NCBI GenBank assembly: GCA_013368325.1
Contig: JAACJK010000224.1
Location: forward strand, 496,001-560,000
DNA: 64,000 nucleotides
Reading direction: 5' to 3'
Origin: Ephemerocybe angulata
Lineage: Eukaryota > Basidiomycota > Agaricomycetes > Agaricales > Psathyrellaceae
Positions 47,328 through 56,441 of the stretch are shown in pieces. Made by a program: the position numbers and the translations under genes. The notes below the pieces were generated by a model that made no database searches, was not told the origin of the DNA, and saw only the letters and a list, made by a program, of their open reading frames with translations. Numbering within the stretch: position 1 is the first letter of the stretch; each line of letters starts with the position of its first letter.

Positions 47328-47341
47328 TAATATGATAGCGG
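47328..47341. repeat. Left target-site duplication of the LINE
   Basis: TAATATGATAGCGG occurs here and again at 56428-56441, exactly at both ends of the element. The identity may extend two more bases (AA) to the left, which cannot be told apart from the poly(A) tail. Confidence 0.9.
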
Positions 47342-47823
47342 GGGGCTCCTTGATCCTGAACCACCATCATCTGGTGGTTTTCCCACGCTTGGGTCAGGAC
47401 AAGGATGGGACACTACCGCTCGCTGACCGGGCCTACGGTCTAGTCAGGACAACGAGCACGTCCTAAGGTCAACACCAACCGCCCCCCCAAAGCGATCTGA
47501 GGATCGGAGAGGAATGGACCCTCCTTCTCTTTGAACGATGAAGAGCCCCAGTGGCTTTCGAGCTATGAGGACGCAGAACGTGGGCCAACCGTGAGGGGGA
47601 CACGAGGCCACACGAGGCGAGTACTGGAACAGCACCCGATACCTAAAGTCAGCTGGACTAACAAAGGCACGATGCCACCTATAGGACGAAATCACGGCCC
47701 ATACCGAGACAAAGGACGACTAATCCACCCGGGAAGCCAGAGATAAAAGGTCGTCTCCCCTCCTTTTCTCCTCAAACGCGAACCTAACAGAACCCATAAA
47801 CTACCAGAACCTCTTCATACTCG

Positions 47824-50332
47824 ATGTCGACTCGACCAGACGCCCCCGACAAGAACCAGTTCTCCGTCCTCGAAGTCGAGGATCCCTCTCAGACTCCCCC
47901 TGCGACCAGCTCCCAGACCGCGCCGCACCCCACCTCAAAGAACACATCCATCCCCGGTGTCTCTATCGTCCCCAACCAAGCCACTCAGGCCACCGTATCG
48001 GCCGCCGTATCGTCCACCCTGAGGGCAGGCCGATCCCGCCACGGTCAACGCACGAACCCGGCTAACCAAGCCGTGGCCCCCACCGCCGCCGCTAACTCGA
48101 CCAAGAACAAAGGAATTGTATCTCAAACCTCCATCACCGACTTCTACGCCGGCACCCCAAACAAAGAAATCACAGAGAGCATGAAGAAGGCGAGGATCGA
48201 TAGTACTCCCCCTCCCCCTCCCCCCGATCAGCCAAAGGCAAAGGTCCCCCTCTCCGAACTAGGACGAATCCCCAAGAGGAAGACCGACGAGGTTGAAGGG
48301 GCTGCTGTGCAGCCCTCCCCCACCAAGAAATCTTTCCCCGCCGTCGAAGCCAACGCGGCAGTCGTAGGAGGGTACGTCCCCCATGACATCTCCCTCATCA
48401 AAGAGGAACTGACTAATATGCTTCCAGCCCCCAGCCCGAACCTGAAGCCCCTACCCTCGCTACCAAAGACGCTCAAAGTGGAGCCGCCGCCACCGAGGGG
48501 GTCACCTCCTCCCAGTCTGAGCCGACCGCCGACCCCGGACCCGTGAAGGAAACGCAAGGCGTCGGCTCCTTCCCCGACTTCCTGAACACCCGCTACGGCG
48601 TAAAGGAGTACGTCGCCGAGAACTACAACTTCTCCTCGCCCGAATACCATGAGTACCTCGAAGCCCGCTACAGAAAGCTGAACTACATGACAATCCTCCC
48701 AGCCAAATTCAACAAAGGGAAGGGCAAAGAAGATGACCTGGCTGGTGACCGTATGGATGTGGACCAGACCTCGAACAAAGGCCAAGACCCGAACGTCGGG
48801 TCGACTGGTGAGTCTTGTACTACCCTCTAACAAGACATCTCTCACACCCGATACCAGTCCCGCTCCAGACCCAACAGACGAGCACCTCTGCCGTCGTACG
48901 AACGGAGGAAATGGACGTCGACCACCCTGAAGGCCGCTCCCTCCAGGACAGCATGCATGCCCCACAGGCCCAGCCCCAGCCTCCTCAGGGCCCCCCTGCC
49001 AAGACCGCCACTATGCAGAACCCTCAGACCGCCGCTAAGACCACCCAGCCGCCGAAGAATGAACCAGACACTCCTGAGGCCTCACGTCCCCCCACGCCTG
49101 AGCCAGAAGAACCCCTGGAGGTTCAATACAGCGATATCATCAACCCGAACCCCACGCCGGGCCCCTACCTGGCCTCGAAGGTCCCCGAAGGAGGCTACCC
49201 GACCTCCCAAGTCGATGCTCGTCACTTCTTCGACAGAGTCGATCCCAACTCGATCGACCTCTTGACCGGTATCCAAGGCCCCAAGTGCTGGGCCTTCATC
49301 GCCCACGACCGACCTAACTCGGAGCTGTTCAGACGCGACGGCCATCTTGACGAAGCCATCCGTAACCTCATACCCGATGCCGACCCGAAGTTCCTGAGGA
49401 TGCTCCCGGATCCCAACTCCCCCACCGACCCCATCACTGGCCCGAAAAGGCTGCAAGGGGCGCTCATCTACAACATCAAGCCAAGGCACGTACAGTTCCT
49501 CGTGCACCGAAAGACCGTGGATACCCCCACCTTCTGGTTCAACATCCTCCCTTTCGCGCTCCGAAACACAGATTTCATCGGAGCCTTCGACAATCTTCCC
49601 CCCTCGCGCGACACACAGAAGATGGTAGATGCCATCGCCCTGGTGCTCTACAACCACCTTAGCGACAAGCGCGAGATCCTTGAGAAGAAGATCGAAACCT
49701 ACCACGACGCTATCCCCGGCGATGTCCCTCCCGAAGAACACTTCGATTGGGTCATCAGCTCGATCCGAGTATCCATGATCGTAACCACCGTCTCTAACAA
49801 CCCTCGCCCCGCCTACCGTGTCTATATAAAGTCCCCCACCTTTGACCCCATTGCCTACGAGAAAGAGTTCCTCACGTTCTATCGAGGGGAAACTTATCGA
49901 GGCGAGAACTACATCATCAAATTTTCCCCAACCGAATGGCTCTGCAACGCCTGCAAGAGCATTGACCATCCTCACGGCCTCTGCCCCTTCCAGTCTATCC
50001 CGGGTTTCCACAACCGTCGCCTCAACGCCGCCGGCGTCACCGTCGCGGAGACCCCCGCACAGTCCACTGCGAAGGTGAACACCTCCGCCCTCAACAACCC
50101 CGATGAAGAGACAGCCCAGTCCTTCATGAGCATCTACGCCCGCCAAGCGACACAGACTGAGAACGCCCAACAAGGCCCCTCCAACGACAACGCCCAAGGA
50201 GGTTGGATGACCGTTGGTCAGAGGGGCGGAGGACGATCGAGGCCTCCTCGCGGAGGATGGAGAGGAGGACGCGGAGGCGGTAGAGGTGGATTCCGAGGCT
50301 GGGTCGACCCGAACTACGATCCTAGCTGGTAA
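47824..50332 (+). CDS. LINE ORF1 protein (Gag-like), intron-containing
   Basis: join(47824..48371, 48428..48807, 48858..50332) encodes 800 residues. Unspliced, the frame stops at 48546 after 240 residues. The two intervening segments have canonical ends: 56 nt with GTACGT...CCAG and CTGACTAAT before the acceptor, and 50 nt with GTGAGT...CCAG and CTAAC. Removing them restores one frame with matching phases. Residues 101-108 (QTSITDFY) are a PIP box. A disordered P/T/E-rich part follows, then an ordered domain (FPDFLNTRYGVKEYVAENYN; GPKCWAFIAHDRPNSELFRR; FWFNILPFALRNTDFIGAFD). A CX2CX4HX4C zinc knuckle (CNACKSIDHPHGLC) and an RGG-rich tail end the protein. The role is RNA binding and RNP assembly. 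Splicing is inferred from sequence. Confidence 0.8.
48372..48427 (+). other. Putative spliceosomal intron 1 of LINE ORF1
   Basis: 56 nt with GTACGT donor, CTGACTAAT branch-like string and CCAG acceptor. It interrupts a codon after its second base (GG|C) and changes the frame from one that closes at 48546 to the 48543 frame, which continues. Confidence 0.75.
48808..48857 (+). other. Putative spliceosomal intron 2 of LINE ORF1
   Basis: 50 nt with GTGAGT donor, CTCTAAC branch-like string and CCAG acceptor. It interrupts a codon after its first base (G|TC) and avoids the in-frame TAA at 48828-48830, leading into the long 3' exon. Confidence 0.8.
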
Positions 50333-50950
50333 ACACCCACGCAGCACACCACCCCCGCACGCCTGCCCCCATACGATACAACATTCATCATCCACTGCCC
50401 GTATTCCCACCTTTCTTTTTGCTGCTCCTGATCTCTCTTCTTTTCGAAACATGCTACGATACTGACTACGTACCTGACCATTGACCTCCATTCTGACCAA
50501 CTCACGTCGCACCCTCCTTACGCACGAACGAACTATACCAACCATACATACCTGACATCTGTATATGCCCCCTTGATCAATACTATACCCCACGCTCCTT
50601 AAACCTAGGTCAATGTAAGAGCGCCTCCTGGAATGGGAACTTGGAAAAGAACAAGTAAACCCCGATGACGACTATACGATTGCTTATAAGATACTAAACC
50701 CACGAGAGCCACCCACGCAGCTCCCCCATATCATCACCTTCACATCCCTCTGTCACACGATGGCAGCTTCTAGGCGGGACTCTCGCCTACCCCGGGGTGG
50801 CGCCCAAATACACTGACTCCTCGGAGGACAGGAAAGCGTCGTGTACCCCAACTCCCGTGGTAGCCTGGAGTAAAACGGGCTCTGGGTCTGGTAAGCGTTG
50901 GTAGCGCTCCAATAGACCCTATTTTACCTAACACCCCTGACACAAATACG
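50333..50950 (+). other. ORF1-ORF2 spacer of the LINE
   Basis: 618 nt without a long frame. The frame of ORF2 is open upstream of its ATG to 50864. The ORF1 stop codon overlaps a GTAAAC string, a possible donor; joined to the TAAG acceptor ending at 50895 it would fuse ORF1 to ORF2 in frame, but any acceptor has a one-in-three chance of doing so. How ORF2 is translated is not shown by the sequence. Confidence 0.5.
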
Positions 50951-53900
50951 ATGAACAACTTAACACAACGGTGCATTACGAACTGGTTTGGCCCACGCCT
51001 CCCCGAAAGCAGAGGAGGCCGGGTCTCGTCTATTGGCTCTACCTCCGACGACGCTCTCAGGGATCACGGAAATGGACACCCTCGCTCTCGGTTACCCTCG
51101 GGTGACTACCCAAATGCCCGTATTCGTGCTCGGAGGTCACAAGCCCCAGACTCGATACCACGCCCAACACCAGGCGAGAACAATGAACGTCCAACACCAG
51201 ACACAGAGAATACCAATGATAATACGACTATGATAGATATTGAAAACGAACCGATCACATATTGCAACGACGCAGGTCACCAAAGAACGATTATAGACTA
51301 CTTTAACCCAACCGACCTACCAACAGGGAAGAAGAATCTGAGAGCGAATATCGGTATTGGCACGCTAAACATCAGAGGAGGAGGCTCTACTGCTACAGAC
51401 GGCAAATGGGGCCATATGAACCAAATGATGAAGGACCATAAACTAGGCATCCTAGCGGTGCAGGAAACACACCTCACTACACGAACCGTCAAAGCGCTCA
51501 ACGAGAAACATAAGCGCCTCCATATTATCAACTCCGCACTTGGCCAGAGAGCCAATGCGGCGGGCATCGCCATCGTATTGAATAAAGACTACACTGCTTG
51601 GAGAGAAGAAGAACACTGGGTACTAATCCCAGGAAGAGCAATCCTAGTGCGTATACCATGGAAGAACAGCGGAGGCAACAAGAGAACCTTCCTAGCCATC
51701 TACGCCCCCAACCGAGCCAAAGAAAATAAGGAGATGTGGCAACGACTCGAGCACAAATTCCGGAATAGCAACCTACCCCGTCCAGACTTCATGCTAGGCG
51801 ACTTTAATATGGTGGAAGAAGCGTTGGATAGATTACCGGCGAGGACAGACCAGGCGACAGTAGTAGAGAGTCTAAGGGACCTGAAGAGCTATCTAAAATT
51901 GGTAGATGGATGGAGGAAGGAGAATGGTGAAGGAAAAGCATACTCCTACCTGCAGGCGAACTCGTCTGTACAGTCGAGGATCGATCGGATATATACAAGG
52001 GAGGAACTTTACATTAACACCTGCGATTGGGAGATACACGCAGGCCAGGGTATAGTGTCAGACCACGACCTAGTCACTGTCAAATATTTCGACCCGGGCA
52101 TCCCTCAAATAGGGAAGGGGCGATGGGCCCTGCCAGTTTGGCTAACCGATGATGCAGACTTCATAACGGTATGGATGAAGGACACAATGAACGAAACGCT
52201 AGATAAGATCACCGCGCACACGGAGGAGAGGAGAACCAAAGATCGGAACCCACAGAAAGTACTATACGACTTCAAGAAAGAGGCCGCCTCCAACGGCGAG
52301 AACTTCATGCTTCGGAAAACCCCCCAGTTCAAAGCCAAAGTCTATAAGAGAGAGAATGACCTACGTGCACTGCTGAACCGAGTGGACATCAACGAAGAGG
52401 ATAAGATGGAATCCGCGGCCTATATCGAAGAGGAACTACGACAGATGCAGGCGCAGCACCACCTGTCGACTAGAGAGCGAATACACCTCAAATACTCACT
52501 CGAAGGTGAGATCATCGGTAAAACATGGATTAACGCGAATAAGGACAGGCGTCCAAGAGACCTTATTACCGCCCTGAAGAAGTTACGCCCGGACGGAAGA
52601 GGCGACCTTGAATACGACTCCAGGAAGATATCTAAGATCGCGCGGGACTACCACAACGACCTACAACAGAAGGGCAGGTGCCATGAAGTACCCACAGAGG
52701 AAAGGAAAGCTGCTTTCGACAAAGCGATAGATTCACTAGACCAGAAGCTAAGTGAGAGAGATAACCAGTCACTCACCCTGAAAATAACCGCCAAAGAGAT
52801 CCGGGAAGCTATCTTCGATGGACAGAACGACAAAGCACCGGGTCTCGATGGACTCCCTATCGAGTTATGGAAAGCACTCACTAAAAGACCAAGTGAAATA
52901 TCAGAAGACGAGGATGAAGAGACGGTACGAGACGCAGCGCTCCTGCTAAAAGTAGCTTTTAACGACATCATCGAATATGGAGTAGAGGAAGGCACTGAGT
53001 TTAATGCTGGCTGGATGAGCCCGATACACAAGAAGAAAAACAAGGCCGATATCGCTAACTACCGACCAATTACGATCTTGAATACGGACTACAAGACTCT
53101 AACCAAAGTACTCACCAAACGCATCACGGGCCCAGCCACGACACTAATTCACGAAGATCAAGCAGGCTTCATGAAGGGACGCAGGATTGAGAACCAGACG
53201 GATTTAATCAAAACTATGATTGACTACGGTGAGAGCGAGGATGTGAGAGGGATGCTAGTATTCCTGGACCAAGAGAAGGCTTACGACAAAATAATGCACG
53301 ACTTCCTCTACGCAACGCTGGAGAAAATGAATTTCCCGCCCAACTTTATACGAGCAGTGAAGGCCCTGTATGGTAACGCGAGGACCTGCGTAATAATCAA
53401 CGGCATGATTAGTGATCCGTTCGACATTATCCGAGGAGTACGACAAGGAGACCCCCTATCGTGCCTCCTTTTTAATTTCGCCATAGAGTCCCTTGCGTGC
53501 ATGATCCGCAAGTCAAACCTCAAAGGCTTCACCACCCCGAGGATGAAAGAGAGATTAATACTCTCCATGTTTGCCGACGACACGACAGTTTTCCTCTCCG
53601 AGGAAGACGATTTCCACTGCCTCCAAGAAATCCTAGACACATGGTGCCTCGCATCTGGAGCTAAATTCAATGTAGATAAGACAGAGATCGTACCTATAGG
53701 AAAGAAACCGTATCGAGACGAGCTCAGGAGGACAAGGGGCGAGACACCCGAACGCCGACCGATCCCCGCGAGCATCAACATCGCAAGAGAGAAAGAGCCA
53801 GTACGTGCACTAGGGGCCTTCGTAGGAAACAATATAGTGGATATTTCAGTTTGGACACCCACACTGGAGGACATAGACGCCGCACTCACCAGGTGGGCCA

Positions 53901-56218
53901 GAAGCTCTCCCACCATGGAGGGGAGACGACTGATAGTAAATATGGAGGTAGGCGGTCGTACCCAATACCGAACGATGGTCCAAGGGATGCCGCCCGAGAT
54001 CCTAAAAAGATTGAAAAAGACAATCAGAGACTTTATCTGGGATGACAAAGCGAGCTATGTCAACATCGACACGATGCACCTACCATTTGAGATGGGGGGA
54101 ATGAAGATCCTCGACCTTGAGGCAAGAAACGAGGCCATACGCCTCATGCGCCTCAAGAGATACCTCGACTTCGAACGACGACCCCGATGGGCGCTGATAG
54201 CGGACTACCTGCTATCTCGAAACGTACCAAAAATGTATGGAGACATAAATCCAGATGACCTAGTAAACATGTTCACTCAAACATGGAAAGCGGCGAAACA
54301 AACAAACCGAAGCGTCGCACCTCAGCCCATAAGGGAAATGATAAAGACCGCCTCGAAGTATGGAGCGAGGCTGTGGACCAACCACCCTTCCGAATCCCTC
54401 AAAAGAGCAATGCCGATCTGGTTTCATGTTGCGTCGAAACGCAGCCAAGCAGCGTCAAACGCCTCAAACCATTGGACCCGATGCCAAAGAGACGTCCATA
54501 AGATAGAAACCATGGGTCAGATGTTCGATTACAGTAACGAAGAGGAAACACACACCCTTACGACGGACGAAAATGACCCGGAATACCCTGACGACTGCAT
54601 ATGTGAGAGATGCAACGCAGACAGGGCGAAAGGATGCCTCCACCCGAGCAAATGCAGGGAGAAAGCAAGTGAGTTCCTAAGAACGATAAACAAGACGTGG
54701 ATCCCGACCCCAGAACGGGACGAAAACGACGAAGAGTCCCGGGAGGCGAGCGGCAAATTTGTGCCCTACAACAGAGCAAAAAACTTCACGGAAGCAATTC
54801 GGATATTCACGAGCGGTGACGCACCTAGCACAGCGATCGACATTGACCTTAACACCCTCTTTGGCGTGGATTCGGACCTTACACAAGTAGAGGAGGAAAT
54901 TTACACCGATGGCTCATGTAAGAAAGGAGACGACAATAAGATGAAGGCCGGATCAGGCATCTGGTTTGGAGATAATGACGACCGGAATATTGCGCTCCGG
55001 ATCCCGGACACCCTATCTCAGACAAACAACGTCGCAGAGGCATCCGCCATACTCGTCGCACTACAGGAGACTGAAGATCATATACCAATTAAGATATGTA
55101 CGGATTCTCAGGTTACACTCACCATGATAGGGAAGAGTCTACTGCAAGCTGAAGACACGGCCTGGATGAATACGAAAAACAGAGAAATCCTGGAGCCCTT
55201 AGTGGCGACACTCCGCAGACGTAAAGCAGCTACCGTACTGGAGAAGGTCAGGGCTCACGTTGGAATACACGGCAATGAGGAAGCGGATAGACTCACGAAC
55301 GAAGGCGCTGACAAAGAGACGGCTGAACGCGACATTGATACGAGAGTACCGGGGAACCAGAGAGTGGAAGGAATCAGACTTGAAGGAGCAACACAGTCAC
55401 TTATATACAAAAGTATTCGAGCAATAAAATCGAAGTCGGTGAAAGAGAGAAGAGCAACAACTATGCATCTTGACCTGGTAAGGCACGAAATCGAGGAACG
55501 AACCGGAAGAATCCTGACAGATGAGGAGATATGGATGTCATACAGAGGGAAAGCAATCAGGAACAAGAGGACGAGGCAACTGCTTTGGAAACTCACCCAC
55601 CAAGGCCTGCCTATTGGCACGTACTGGGATAAGATCACGAATTTTGAAACCAGAGGCCGATGCACCGGATGTGATACAATTGAGTCAGCGGAACATATCT
55701 TCACAGAATGTAGATACACGGGCCAGGACGCCGTATGGAATATAGTGAGGAGGATTCTAGAAAAGAAAGGCATTGAATGGCGGCGACCTACTCTGGGAAC
55801 TGTCCTAGGGTGCGGAGTATCCAATATCAAGAATGAAAGGACAGGAGGACCGAGACCAGAGGCAGATAGACTATACACAACCCTCATCACAGAAGCGACA
55901 CAATTTATCTGGCGGAAACGCTGCTCCTGGAAAATAGACAAGGATGGAGATCCCGAGCGAGCACCGACCAAGAAGGAGATCCACAACCAATTTGTGTCCA
56001 CCATCAACAAGGTCATCCGGTTTGATATACTCACAACCAGCTACGTTCCAAAGAAGAATAAAAACCGAAAAAGACTTAATATCCCGACCGAAGAACTAGT
56101 GATTAATACATGGTGGGATATTGTAGATAGCAACGACGAGCTCGAATGGGAAACTCTGAGGAAGCGCAGGAGACGCAAGACCGGGGTTTTAGTGGGTATC
56201 GCGATGATGAGAGATTAG
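50951..56218 (+). CDS. LINE ORF2: endonuclease, reverse transcriptase, RNase H
   Basis: One uninterrupted frame of 1755 residues. Two PIP-box-like motifs lie ahead of the enzyme domains: QRCITNWF (6-13) and QRTIIDYF (111-118). The AP-type endonuclease spans about 137-372 (TLNIRGGG, VQETHL with the metal-binding glutamate near 172, GDFNM near 283, SDHD near 369). Reverse transcriptase follows from about 610 to 980 (LDGLPIELW, YRPITILNTDYKTLTKVL, DQEKAYDKI, RQGDPLSCLLF and catalytic FADDT at 874). RNase H covers about 1314-1460 (IYTDGSC, NNVAEASAI, CTDSQ, HGNEEAD). The C-terminal finger is CTGCDTIESAEHIFTEC near 1570-1586. All catalytic residues I can check are present. It copies element RNA by target-primed reverse transcription. 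Confidence 0.95.
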   Translation: MNNLTQRCITNWFGPRLPESRGGRVSSIGSTSDDALRDHGNGHPRSRLPSGDYPNARIRARRSQAPDSIPRPTPGENNERPTPDTENTNDNTTMIDIENEPITYCNDAGHQRTIIDYFNPTDLPTGKKNLRANIGIGTLNIRGGGSTATDGKWGHMNQMMKDHKLGILAVQETHLTTRTVKALNEKHKRLHIINSALGQRANAAGIAIVLNKDYTAWREEEHWVLIPGRAILVRIPWKNSGGNKRTFLAIYAPNRAKENKEMWQRLEHKFRNSNLPRPDFMLGDFNMVEEALDRLPARTDQATVVESLRDLKSYLKLVDGWRKENGEGKAYSYLQANSSVQSRIDRIYTREELYINTCDWEIHAGQGIVSDHDLVTVKYFDPGIPQIGKGRWALPVWLTDDADFITVWMKDTMNETLDKITAHTEERRTKDRNPQKVLYDFKKEAASNGENFMLRKTPQFKAKVYKRENDLRALLNRVDINEEDKMESAAYIEEELRQMQAQHHLSTRERIHLKYSLEGEIIGKTWINANKDRRPRDLITALKKLRPDGRGDLEYDSRKISKIARDYHNDLQQKGRCHEVPTEERKAAFDKAIDSLDQKLSERDNQSLTLKITAKEIREAIFDGQNDKAPGLDGLPIELWKALTKRPSEISEDEDEETVRDAALLLKVAFNDIIEYGVEEGTEFNAGWMSPIHKKKNKADIANYRPITILNTDYKTLTKVLTKRITGPATTLIHEDQAGFMKGRRIENQTDLIKTMIDYGESEDVRGMLVFLDQEKAYDKIMHDFLYATLEKMNFPPNFIRAVKALYGNARTCVIINGMISDPFDIIRGVRQGDPLSCLLFNFAIESLACMIRKSNLKGFTTPRMKERLILSMFADDTTVFLSEEDDFHCLQEILDTWCLASGAKFNVDKTEIVPIGKKPYRDELRRTRGETPERRPIPASINIAREKEPVRALGAFVGNNIVDISVWTPTLEDIDAALTRWARSSPTMEGRRLIVNMEVGGRTQYRTMVQGMPPEILKRLKKTIRDFIWDDKASYVNIDTMHLPFEMGGMKILDLEARNEAIRLMRLKRYLDFERRPRWALIADYLLSRNVPKMYGDINPDDLVNMFTQTWKAAKQTNRSVAPQPIREMIKTASKYGARLWTNHPSESLKRAMPIWFHVASKRSQAASNASNHWTRCQRDVHKIETMGQMFDYSNEEETHTLTTDENDPEYPDDCICERCNADRAKGCLHPSKCREKASEFLRTINKTWIPTPERDENDEESREASGKFVPYNRAKNFTEAIRIFTSGDAPSTAIDIDLNTLFGVDSDLTQVEEEIYTDGSCKKGDDNKMKAGSGIWFGDNDDRNIALRIPDTLSQTNNVAEASAILVALQETEDHIPIKICTDSQVTLTMIGKSLLQAEDTAWMNTKNREILEPLVATLRRRKAATVLEKVRAHVGIHGNEEADRLTNEGADKETAERDIDTRVPGNQRVEGIRLEGATQSLIYKSIRAIKSKSVKERRATTMHLDLVRHEIEERTGRILTDEEIWMSYRGKAIRNKRTRQLLWKLTHQGLPIGTYWDKITNFETRGRCTGCDTIESAEHIFTECRYTGQDAVWNIVRRILEKKGIEWRRPTLGTVLGCGVSNIKNERTGGPRPEADRLYTTLITEATQFIWRKRCSWKIDKDGDPERAPTKKEIHNQFVSTINKVIRFDILTTSYVPKKNKNRKRLNIPTEELVINTWWDIVDSNDELEWETLRKRRRRKTGVLVGIAMMRD

Positions 56219-56401
56219 CACAACTTACGCGAAGCCCCACACTGTCCAGCATAAAGCTGTTCGTGTATAGGTACATTTCCCCGTCTGGATAACATTACCA
56301 TTGGACTTCCTCACCAATCACCCAACCGACAACGAGAGAATAGTGGGCGTAAGCTCATGTCATTTCACCTTTGAGTCTGTGTTCAATCACAAGGTTATTC
56401 C

Positions 56402-56427
56402 AAAAAAAAAAAAAAAAAAAAAAAAAA
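56402..56427 (+). other. Poly(A) tail of the LINE
   Basis: 26 consecutive A residues immediately precede the right target-site duplication, marking the 3' end of the reverse-transcribed RNA. Confidence 0.95.
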
Positions 56428-56441
56428 TAATATGATAGCGG
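56428..56441. repeat. Right target-site duplication of the LINE
   Basis: Exact copy of the 14 bp at 47328-47341. Confidence 0.9.

Follow-up and report, generated by a model that had tools for sequence, protein, structure and literature searches.

A clade of EEP-endonuclease LINEs in Ephemerocybe angulata very probably carries short ORF1 introns through retrotransposition

Introduction

Can a LINE keep introns in its own coding sequence while it moves through RNA? Elements copied through RNA are expected to lose introns, and the question is raised by one LINE in a 64,000-nt stretch of the 58.7-Mb assembly of Ephemerocybe angulata, an agaric of the Psathyrellaceae (G000:C60:496001-560000; 'the window' denotes this whole stretch). 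An earlier reading of the stretch, made from the sequence only, had claimed two frame-restoring spliceosomal introns within the first open reading frame (ORF1) of the element.

The sequence-only reading had also named Penelope-like elements as documented intron carriers, and this holds. According to the available text of PMC3846280, they are retroelements copied with spliceosomal introns retained, one diverged bdelloid copy has an intron within its ORF, and Penelope is called unlike every other retrotransposon type in dispersing intron-containing genes. The window element appears to share with them the carriage of spliceosomal introns through copying, whereas its machinery differs: Penelope-like elements have a different reverse transcriptase class, a GIY-YIG endonuclease and pLTRs, and the window element has an EEP endonuclease, an A tail and target-site duplications. 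An antisense template is considered for Penelope in the same text, with an unspliced sense template left possible; here, the EEP endonuclease together with the A tail and target-site duplications indicates a sense template.

Results

The element is a full-length LINE on the forward strand (47342-56427), which starts at the conserved 5′ end GGGGCTCCTTGATCC, stops at the end of a 26-nt A tail (56402-56427) and is flanked by 14-nt target-site duplications (TAATATGATAGCGG at 47328-47341, repeated exactly at 56428-56441; the two preceding A match too). ORF2 (50951-56218, 1755 aa) is open and has Pfam matches to an EEP endonuclease (PF03372, 3.2e-07), a reverse transcriptase (PF00078, RVT_1, 1.3e-34) and RNase H; a zf-RVT match stayed below the family cut-off. 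ORF1 matched no Pfam family up to E = 1. Reading by eye revealed a zinc knuckle in it, CX2CX4HX4C (49943-49984), the Cys and His of which are invariant in a three-sequence alignment of three families. The Pfam search gave EEP and RVT_1 instead of GIY-YIG, and no LTR-like pair was found among the largest 20 of 32 direct repeat families. The combination of EEP and reverse transcriptase in ORF2, a target-site duplication and A tail without LTRs, and a zinc knuckle in ORF1 identifies an EEP-type LINE. A zinc knuckle is likewise present in ORF1 of the Tad1 and Inkcap groups. These fungal EEP/RNase H LINEs, groups that are named in PMC9674265, are also like the window element in having an ORF2 with endonuclease, reverse transcriptase and RNase H, and an A tail. 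The 5′ UTR (47342-47823, 482 nt) contains five upstream ATG frames, all short (6-24 aa), which show that the choice of start site in the window element is not simple.

Read directly from the ATG at 47824, ORF1 is shut by a stop at 48544-48546; unspliced RNA would encode an ORF1 truncated at 240 codons, and two overlapping frames (48417-48830 and 48812-50332) lie downstream. Excision of 48372-48427 (intron 1, 56 nt) and 48808-48857 (intron 2, 50 nt) leaves 2403 nt encoding 800 residues, with the sole stop at the end. The junctions are in phase 2 after codon 182 and in phase 1 after codon 309. They delimit exon 1 (47824-48371, an open frame with an N-terminal motif N-x-F/Y-x-x-L that, by eye, recurs in C47, C125a, C38, C152 and C231), exon 2 (48428-48807, an open frame in the gene model) and exon 3 with the stop (48858-50332, containing the conserved ORF1 domain and an RG-rich C-terminus). 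By sequence both segments are predicted U2-type introns, with GT-AG ends, a branch motif and a frame restored on removal: GTACGT...CTGAC/CTAAT...CCAG in intron 1 (splice score 12.3) and GTGAGT...CTAAC...CCAG in intron 2 (13.6), scored with generic fungal weights that were taken from recall and untrained. The background comprised 78,963 nt: for 15 elements, among them the window element, the longest open frame (1501-1889 aa) was taken as ORF2. In this DNA, 46 segments scored at least 8, 12 at least 10, two at least 12 and none at least 13. The rough chance of a segment of at least 12 within the required zone and frame is 0.002 and 0.001. A gene-model search independently picked both introns, with a coding-plus-splice score of 441.8 against 276.1 for the intron-free model. 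The observation of two frame-restoring segments was thus confirmed, with splicing predicted from the sequence.

The overlaps at 48417-48546 and 48812-48830 do permit single shifts, and ORF1 could accordingly be read as a frameshifted copy, or as one with programmed frameshifts, in which the splice signals arose by chance. Against this stand scores of 12.3 and 13.6, where 79 kb of background held two segments of at least 12, and the comparisons of related copies described below.

ORF2 of the window element has 34 matches in the genome, the nearest full-length ones being two at 67%. ORF1 of the sister family (L032) contains a single intron (L032:2479-2534, 56 nt, phase 1), the splice score of which, 8.2, is in the chance range by signal alone, with support coming from frame and comparison. 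At the site of window intron 1 the sister family lacks the segment, as judged from the protein alignment, and one frame reads through. When the stretch from KGKGK to MDVD was aligned alone, the junction of window intron 2 came to a place compatible with that of the sister intron, inside a gap, whereas an automatic full-length protein alignment put the two introns in different columns. The sequence-only reading had asked whether relatives keep both introns: the sister lacks intron 1 and carries one whose position coincides with, or lies close to, that of intron 2. A single open frame in related copies had been named as a sign of a frameshifted copy. This sign is there in part: the sister does read through the intron 1 site, but it is without the segment itself and has an intron at or close to the position of intron 2.

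The region of the sister intron is present on five contigs at 99-100% identity, and the intron is kept in all five. The copies on C47 and C104 arose by separate insertions: each is flanked by a target-site duplication of its own, their A tails measure 29 and 39 nt, and across 5460 nt of the ORF2 region they agree at 99.87%. Since two separate sister insertions both have the intron, intron-bearing RNA was copied. The alternative, that intron-bearing copies spread as DNA through segmental duplication or gene conversion, finds an example in the copies on C102, C103, C104 and C177, which share a common 5′ flank and represent one insertion event. The window, C47 and C104 copies, however, differ in target-site duplications and A tails, which refutes DNA spread for copies with their own duplications. 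Furthermore, a duplication is found at the conserved 5′ end in 11 of 20 elements, eight of which have coding introns; the 5′ terminus of the window copy is the same in the sister family, and among the 19 other elements tested, 10 have a related terminus next to a target-site duplication. Spread as DNA is thus hardly credible as an account of the introns. Shared introns in diverged relatives, and intron-bearing insertions each marked by a separate target-site duplication and A tail, bear out the earlier claim that introns survive in RNA-made copies.

The four contigs with the same sister insertion (L033, L034, L035 and L036 on C104, C177, C102 and C103, respectively) have the same 5′ flank throughout, differ by small indels here and there, and are either duplicated regions or assembly variants. 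At the 5′ junction of the C104 copy (L033:1011-1025), 15 extra nt lie between the target-site duplication and the 5′ end of the element, as in untemplated 5′ junction sequence. For the window element, a 3′-end DNA query found nothing above 72% besides itself, and a 601-nt query spanning its introns found only itself in the assembly, in a search that skips very common words. By these searches, the assembly holds a single copy of the window family.

We read 21 elements of the same genome, picked for a well-preserved open ORF2. Coding introns are predicted in ORF1 of 13 of them (the window element, C47, C104, C231, C143, C117, C47b, C139, C28, C181, C18, C185 and C125b), which make about nine lineages when C47/C104, C47b/C139/C28 and C181/C18 are pooled as related copies. 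Three further elements, C152, C38 and C125a, need no coding intron, but in each an intron-like segment directly abuts the ORF1 ATG (scores 13.3, 11.9 and 10.3), two need no intron (C114 and the near-identical, frame-broken C67), and the ORF1 reading was left without assignment in C210, C220 and C105. The intron-free status of C114 may be in doubt, as it has an optional, unforced 60-nt in-frame candidate with a score of 9.2 and a model score of 438.5, against 427.0 without it.

Support for the individual calls varied. In C231 the gene model scored 369 with two introns and 263 without; the score of the first, 8.1, is in the chance range by signal, and its support comes from frame and comparison. 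The call in C185 rests on a single 54-nt segment with a gene-model gain of 70. Two good introns were seen in C117 and two in C125b, together with a frame break in either element and a stop in C125b; ORF1 breaks or stops beyond the introns were also seen in C104, C28 and C152, in the last case as a frame break near the N-terminus. The gene-model search, which covered 17 elements, differed from the chosen reading in taking a later acceptor in C181 and no intron for C117, C125b and C104; its proposals of two weak introns in C125a, one in the C47 5′ UTR and an additional one each in C18 and C47b were left out of the count. Exon 3 of the window element has 25 matched stretches across the genome, its own copy counted in. 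Intron-free copies were sought by DNA for five intron families, the window family and the C139 region, with C181/C18, C185 and C125b outside the search and match counts being lower bounds; for C231, C117 and C143, only the queries themselves were among the matches listed.

In an ORF2 tree of 24 rows, with database relatives in place of named Tad1 or Inkcap references, the window element is closest to C47 and C104, joined next by P0002 and P0003 (Tricholomella constricta) and after them by C125a, C38 and C152. Intron-bearing families lie on either side of the midpoint, and ORF2 relatives are also found in Tricholomella, Hypsizygus and Pleurotus. A search for ORF1 relatives beyond this genome at 1e-3 returned none, and was insensitive enough to miss relatives within the same genome too. 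As predicted from these sequences, ORF1 introns are a feature of the clade and not of the window copy alone. It is very likely that this clade of EEP-endonuclease LINEs has short U2-type introns in ORF1 that persist through retrotransposition.

ORF1 contains 13 introns in 24,602 nt by our own count, and at this density about 42 would be expected in the 78,963 nt of ORF2, a figure to be read with the elements having been picked by open ORF2 and some matches having stops. A few frame-restoring ORF2 introns are possible, chiefly in C231 and C185, where the frames are shorter.

Closely related copies allowed individual introns to be compared. C47b and C139 are 81-86% identical in DNA, and together with C28 they have intron A (48, 48 and 50 nt in C47b, C139 and C28) at the same place and in the same phase (phase 1). 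The exon 1 frame of C47b runs into a stop inside intron A, and the splice scores of 8.9-9.3 are in the chance range by signal alone, with support from frame and comparison. In the one pair measured, C47b versus C139, dN/dS was 0.091 before intron A (92 codons), 0.097 after it (143 codons) and 0.095 after intron B (120 codons). Intron B (49 nt, phase 0, GTACGT...CTAAT...TATAG; L049:1765-1813, G000:C139:221464-221512) is found only in C139 and is precisely absent from C47b and C28, which read straight through; the spliced C139 protein shows no gap against C47b at this site. C28 also has an ORF1 stop beyond intron explanation. C181 and C18 have a common intron of 52 and 57 nt, and the 5-nt difference is confined to the intron, while indels in the coding part of the stretch under comparison measure 3 and 6 nt.

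These comparisons return to the frameshift explanation. Frame breaks do occur in several relatives, but a complete GT-AG segment that one copy has and another precisely lacks, the 5-nt length difference that lies wholly within an intron, and purifying selection in the frames on both flanks (C47b versus C139) all argue against it, and frameshifting with chance splice signals is very improbable.

Parsimony favours a gain of intron B in C139, the alternative being its loss from the relatives via a spliced template, and intron B is a candidate for a recent intron gain. Recent gain links intron B to introners, the subject of PMC9860276, from which the window element differs in that its intron stretch has no second match in the assembly. 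An introner identity was rejected for the window introns on the result of the 601-nt query given above, by which the intron sequence is not repeated at other loci.

Discussion

ORF1 introns that diverged copies have in common, and intron-bearing full-length elements flanked by target-site duplications and ending in A tails, point to a sense, polyadenylated RNA holding introns that was copied by ORF2p. If the template keeps the introns and the ORF1 protein lacks them, two kinds of RNA are required. This partly implies the switch between coding and transposing suggested by the sequence-only reading, a switch that may be regulated; the sequences imply that the full ORF1 protein requires splicing and that the copied RNA is unspliced and polyadenylated. 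That work is divided between the spliced and unspliced RNAs is a serious possibility, though short of probable. The spliced RNA would give ORF1p, acting in trans, and the unspliced RNA, with ORF1 cut short (at 240 codons here), would serve as template and possibly also as message for ORF2p; if ORF2p were made from unspliced RNA, its cis-preference would keep the intron-bearing form. Ogre LTR retrotransposons retain an intron within the element and use unspliced RNA as the genome, as proposed here, although they are LTR elements and differ in intron place and proteins.

It is possible, though less likely than not, that the introns are real and functionless: splicing of these short introns would be incomplete, ORF2p would copy any full-length RNA, and the N-terminal half of ORF1, being under loose constraint, would gain and lose introns neutrally. 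Such drift fits the different intron places between families, the presence of intron B in C139 only, the ORF1 of C114 and C67 that can be read without any intron, and several weak signals (8.1-9.7), which are compatible with incomplete splicing. A copy made from a spliced template, however, loses its introns permanently yet still codes for ORF1p, so that drift should empty the clade of introns, whereas 13 of the 21 elements have coding introns and three more an intron-like segment at the ATG.

More tentatively still, we propose that these LINEs are gated by splicing: the host spliceosome would sort one transcript into a spliced ORF1p message and an unspliced template and ORF2p message, selection on this division would maintain the introns, and LINE copies would themselves acquire new ones, as is suggested by intron B in C139. 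The introns might instead matter chiefly to the host, as in Cryptococcus neoformans, where the available text of PMC6232588 describes poorly spliced transposon introns that stall spliceosomes and recruit RNAi. Several introns here do have weak signals, but both window introns are strong, and a cost to the element leaves the retention of introns unexplained; we regard this reading as unlikely. For human L1, PMC5860796 describes, in the text available, that the host splices LINE RNA and that splicing inhibits L1; in SpIREs, splicing takes out 5′ UTR or ORF1 sequence, and the spliced copies are generally dead ends. The window LINE differs from L1 in that its full ORF1 needs the predicted splicing.

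Among the literature matches listed, judged by title and the start of the abstract and with subscription papers thinly covered, no report of a LINE with ORF1 introns was found. The words 'intron' and 'splic' are absent from the main text of PMC9674265 on fungal LINEs, as far as that text is available, and the sole match in the accessible part of the Laccaria paper PMC3411680 concerns intronic regions. This apparent lack of earlier reports is no proof of absence. In a LINE clade that retains introns, a single system would allow tests of how the template RNA is chosen, of cis-preference and of intron gain; pipelines that read ORFs without introns will label such elements broken.

High-scoring intron-like segments also occur in the ORF1-ORF2 interval, or where the ORF2 frame begins, at G000:C117:569291-569341 (L044/L014, score 12.2) and G000:C185:366420-366488 (L054/L019, score 14.2), and from their sequence these might yield an ORF2 message. 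C139 and C28 have segments scoring 10.9-11.8 near the ORF2 start. The 5′ ends of the window element (47342-47385) and of 10 other elements mostly read GG..CCTTGATCC..ACCACCA, with C125b and C185 deviating, and such conserved termini mark full-length ends across deeply split families. In the window element, a short inverted repeat, ACCACCATCATCTGGTGGT, follows the 5′ terminal motif.
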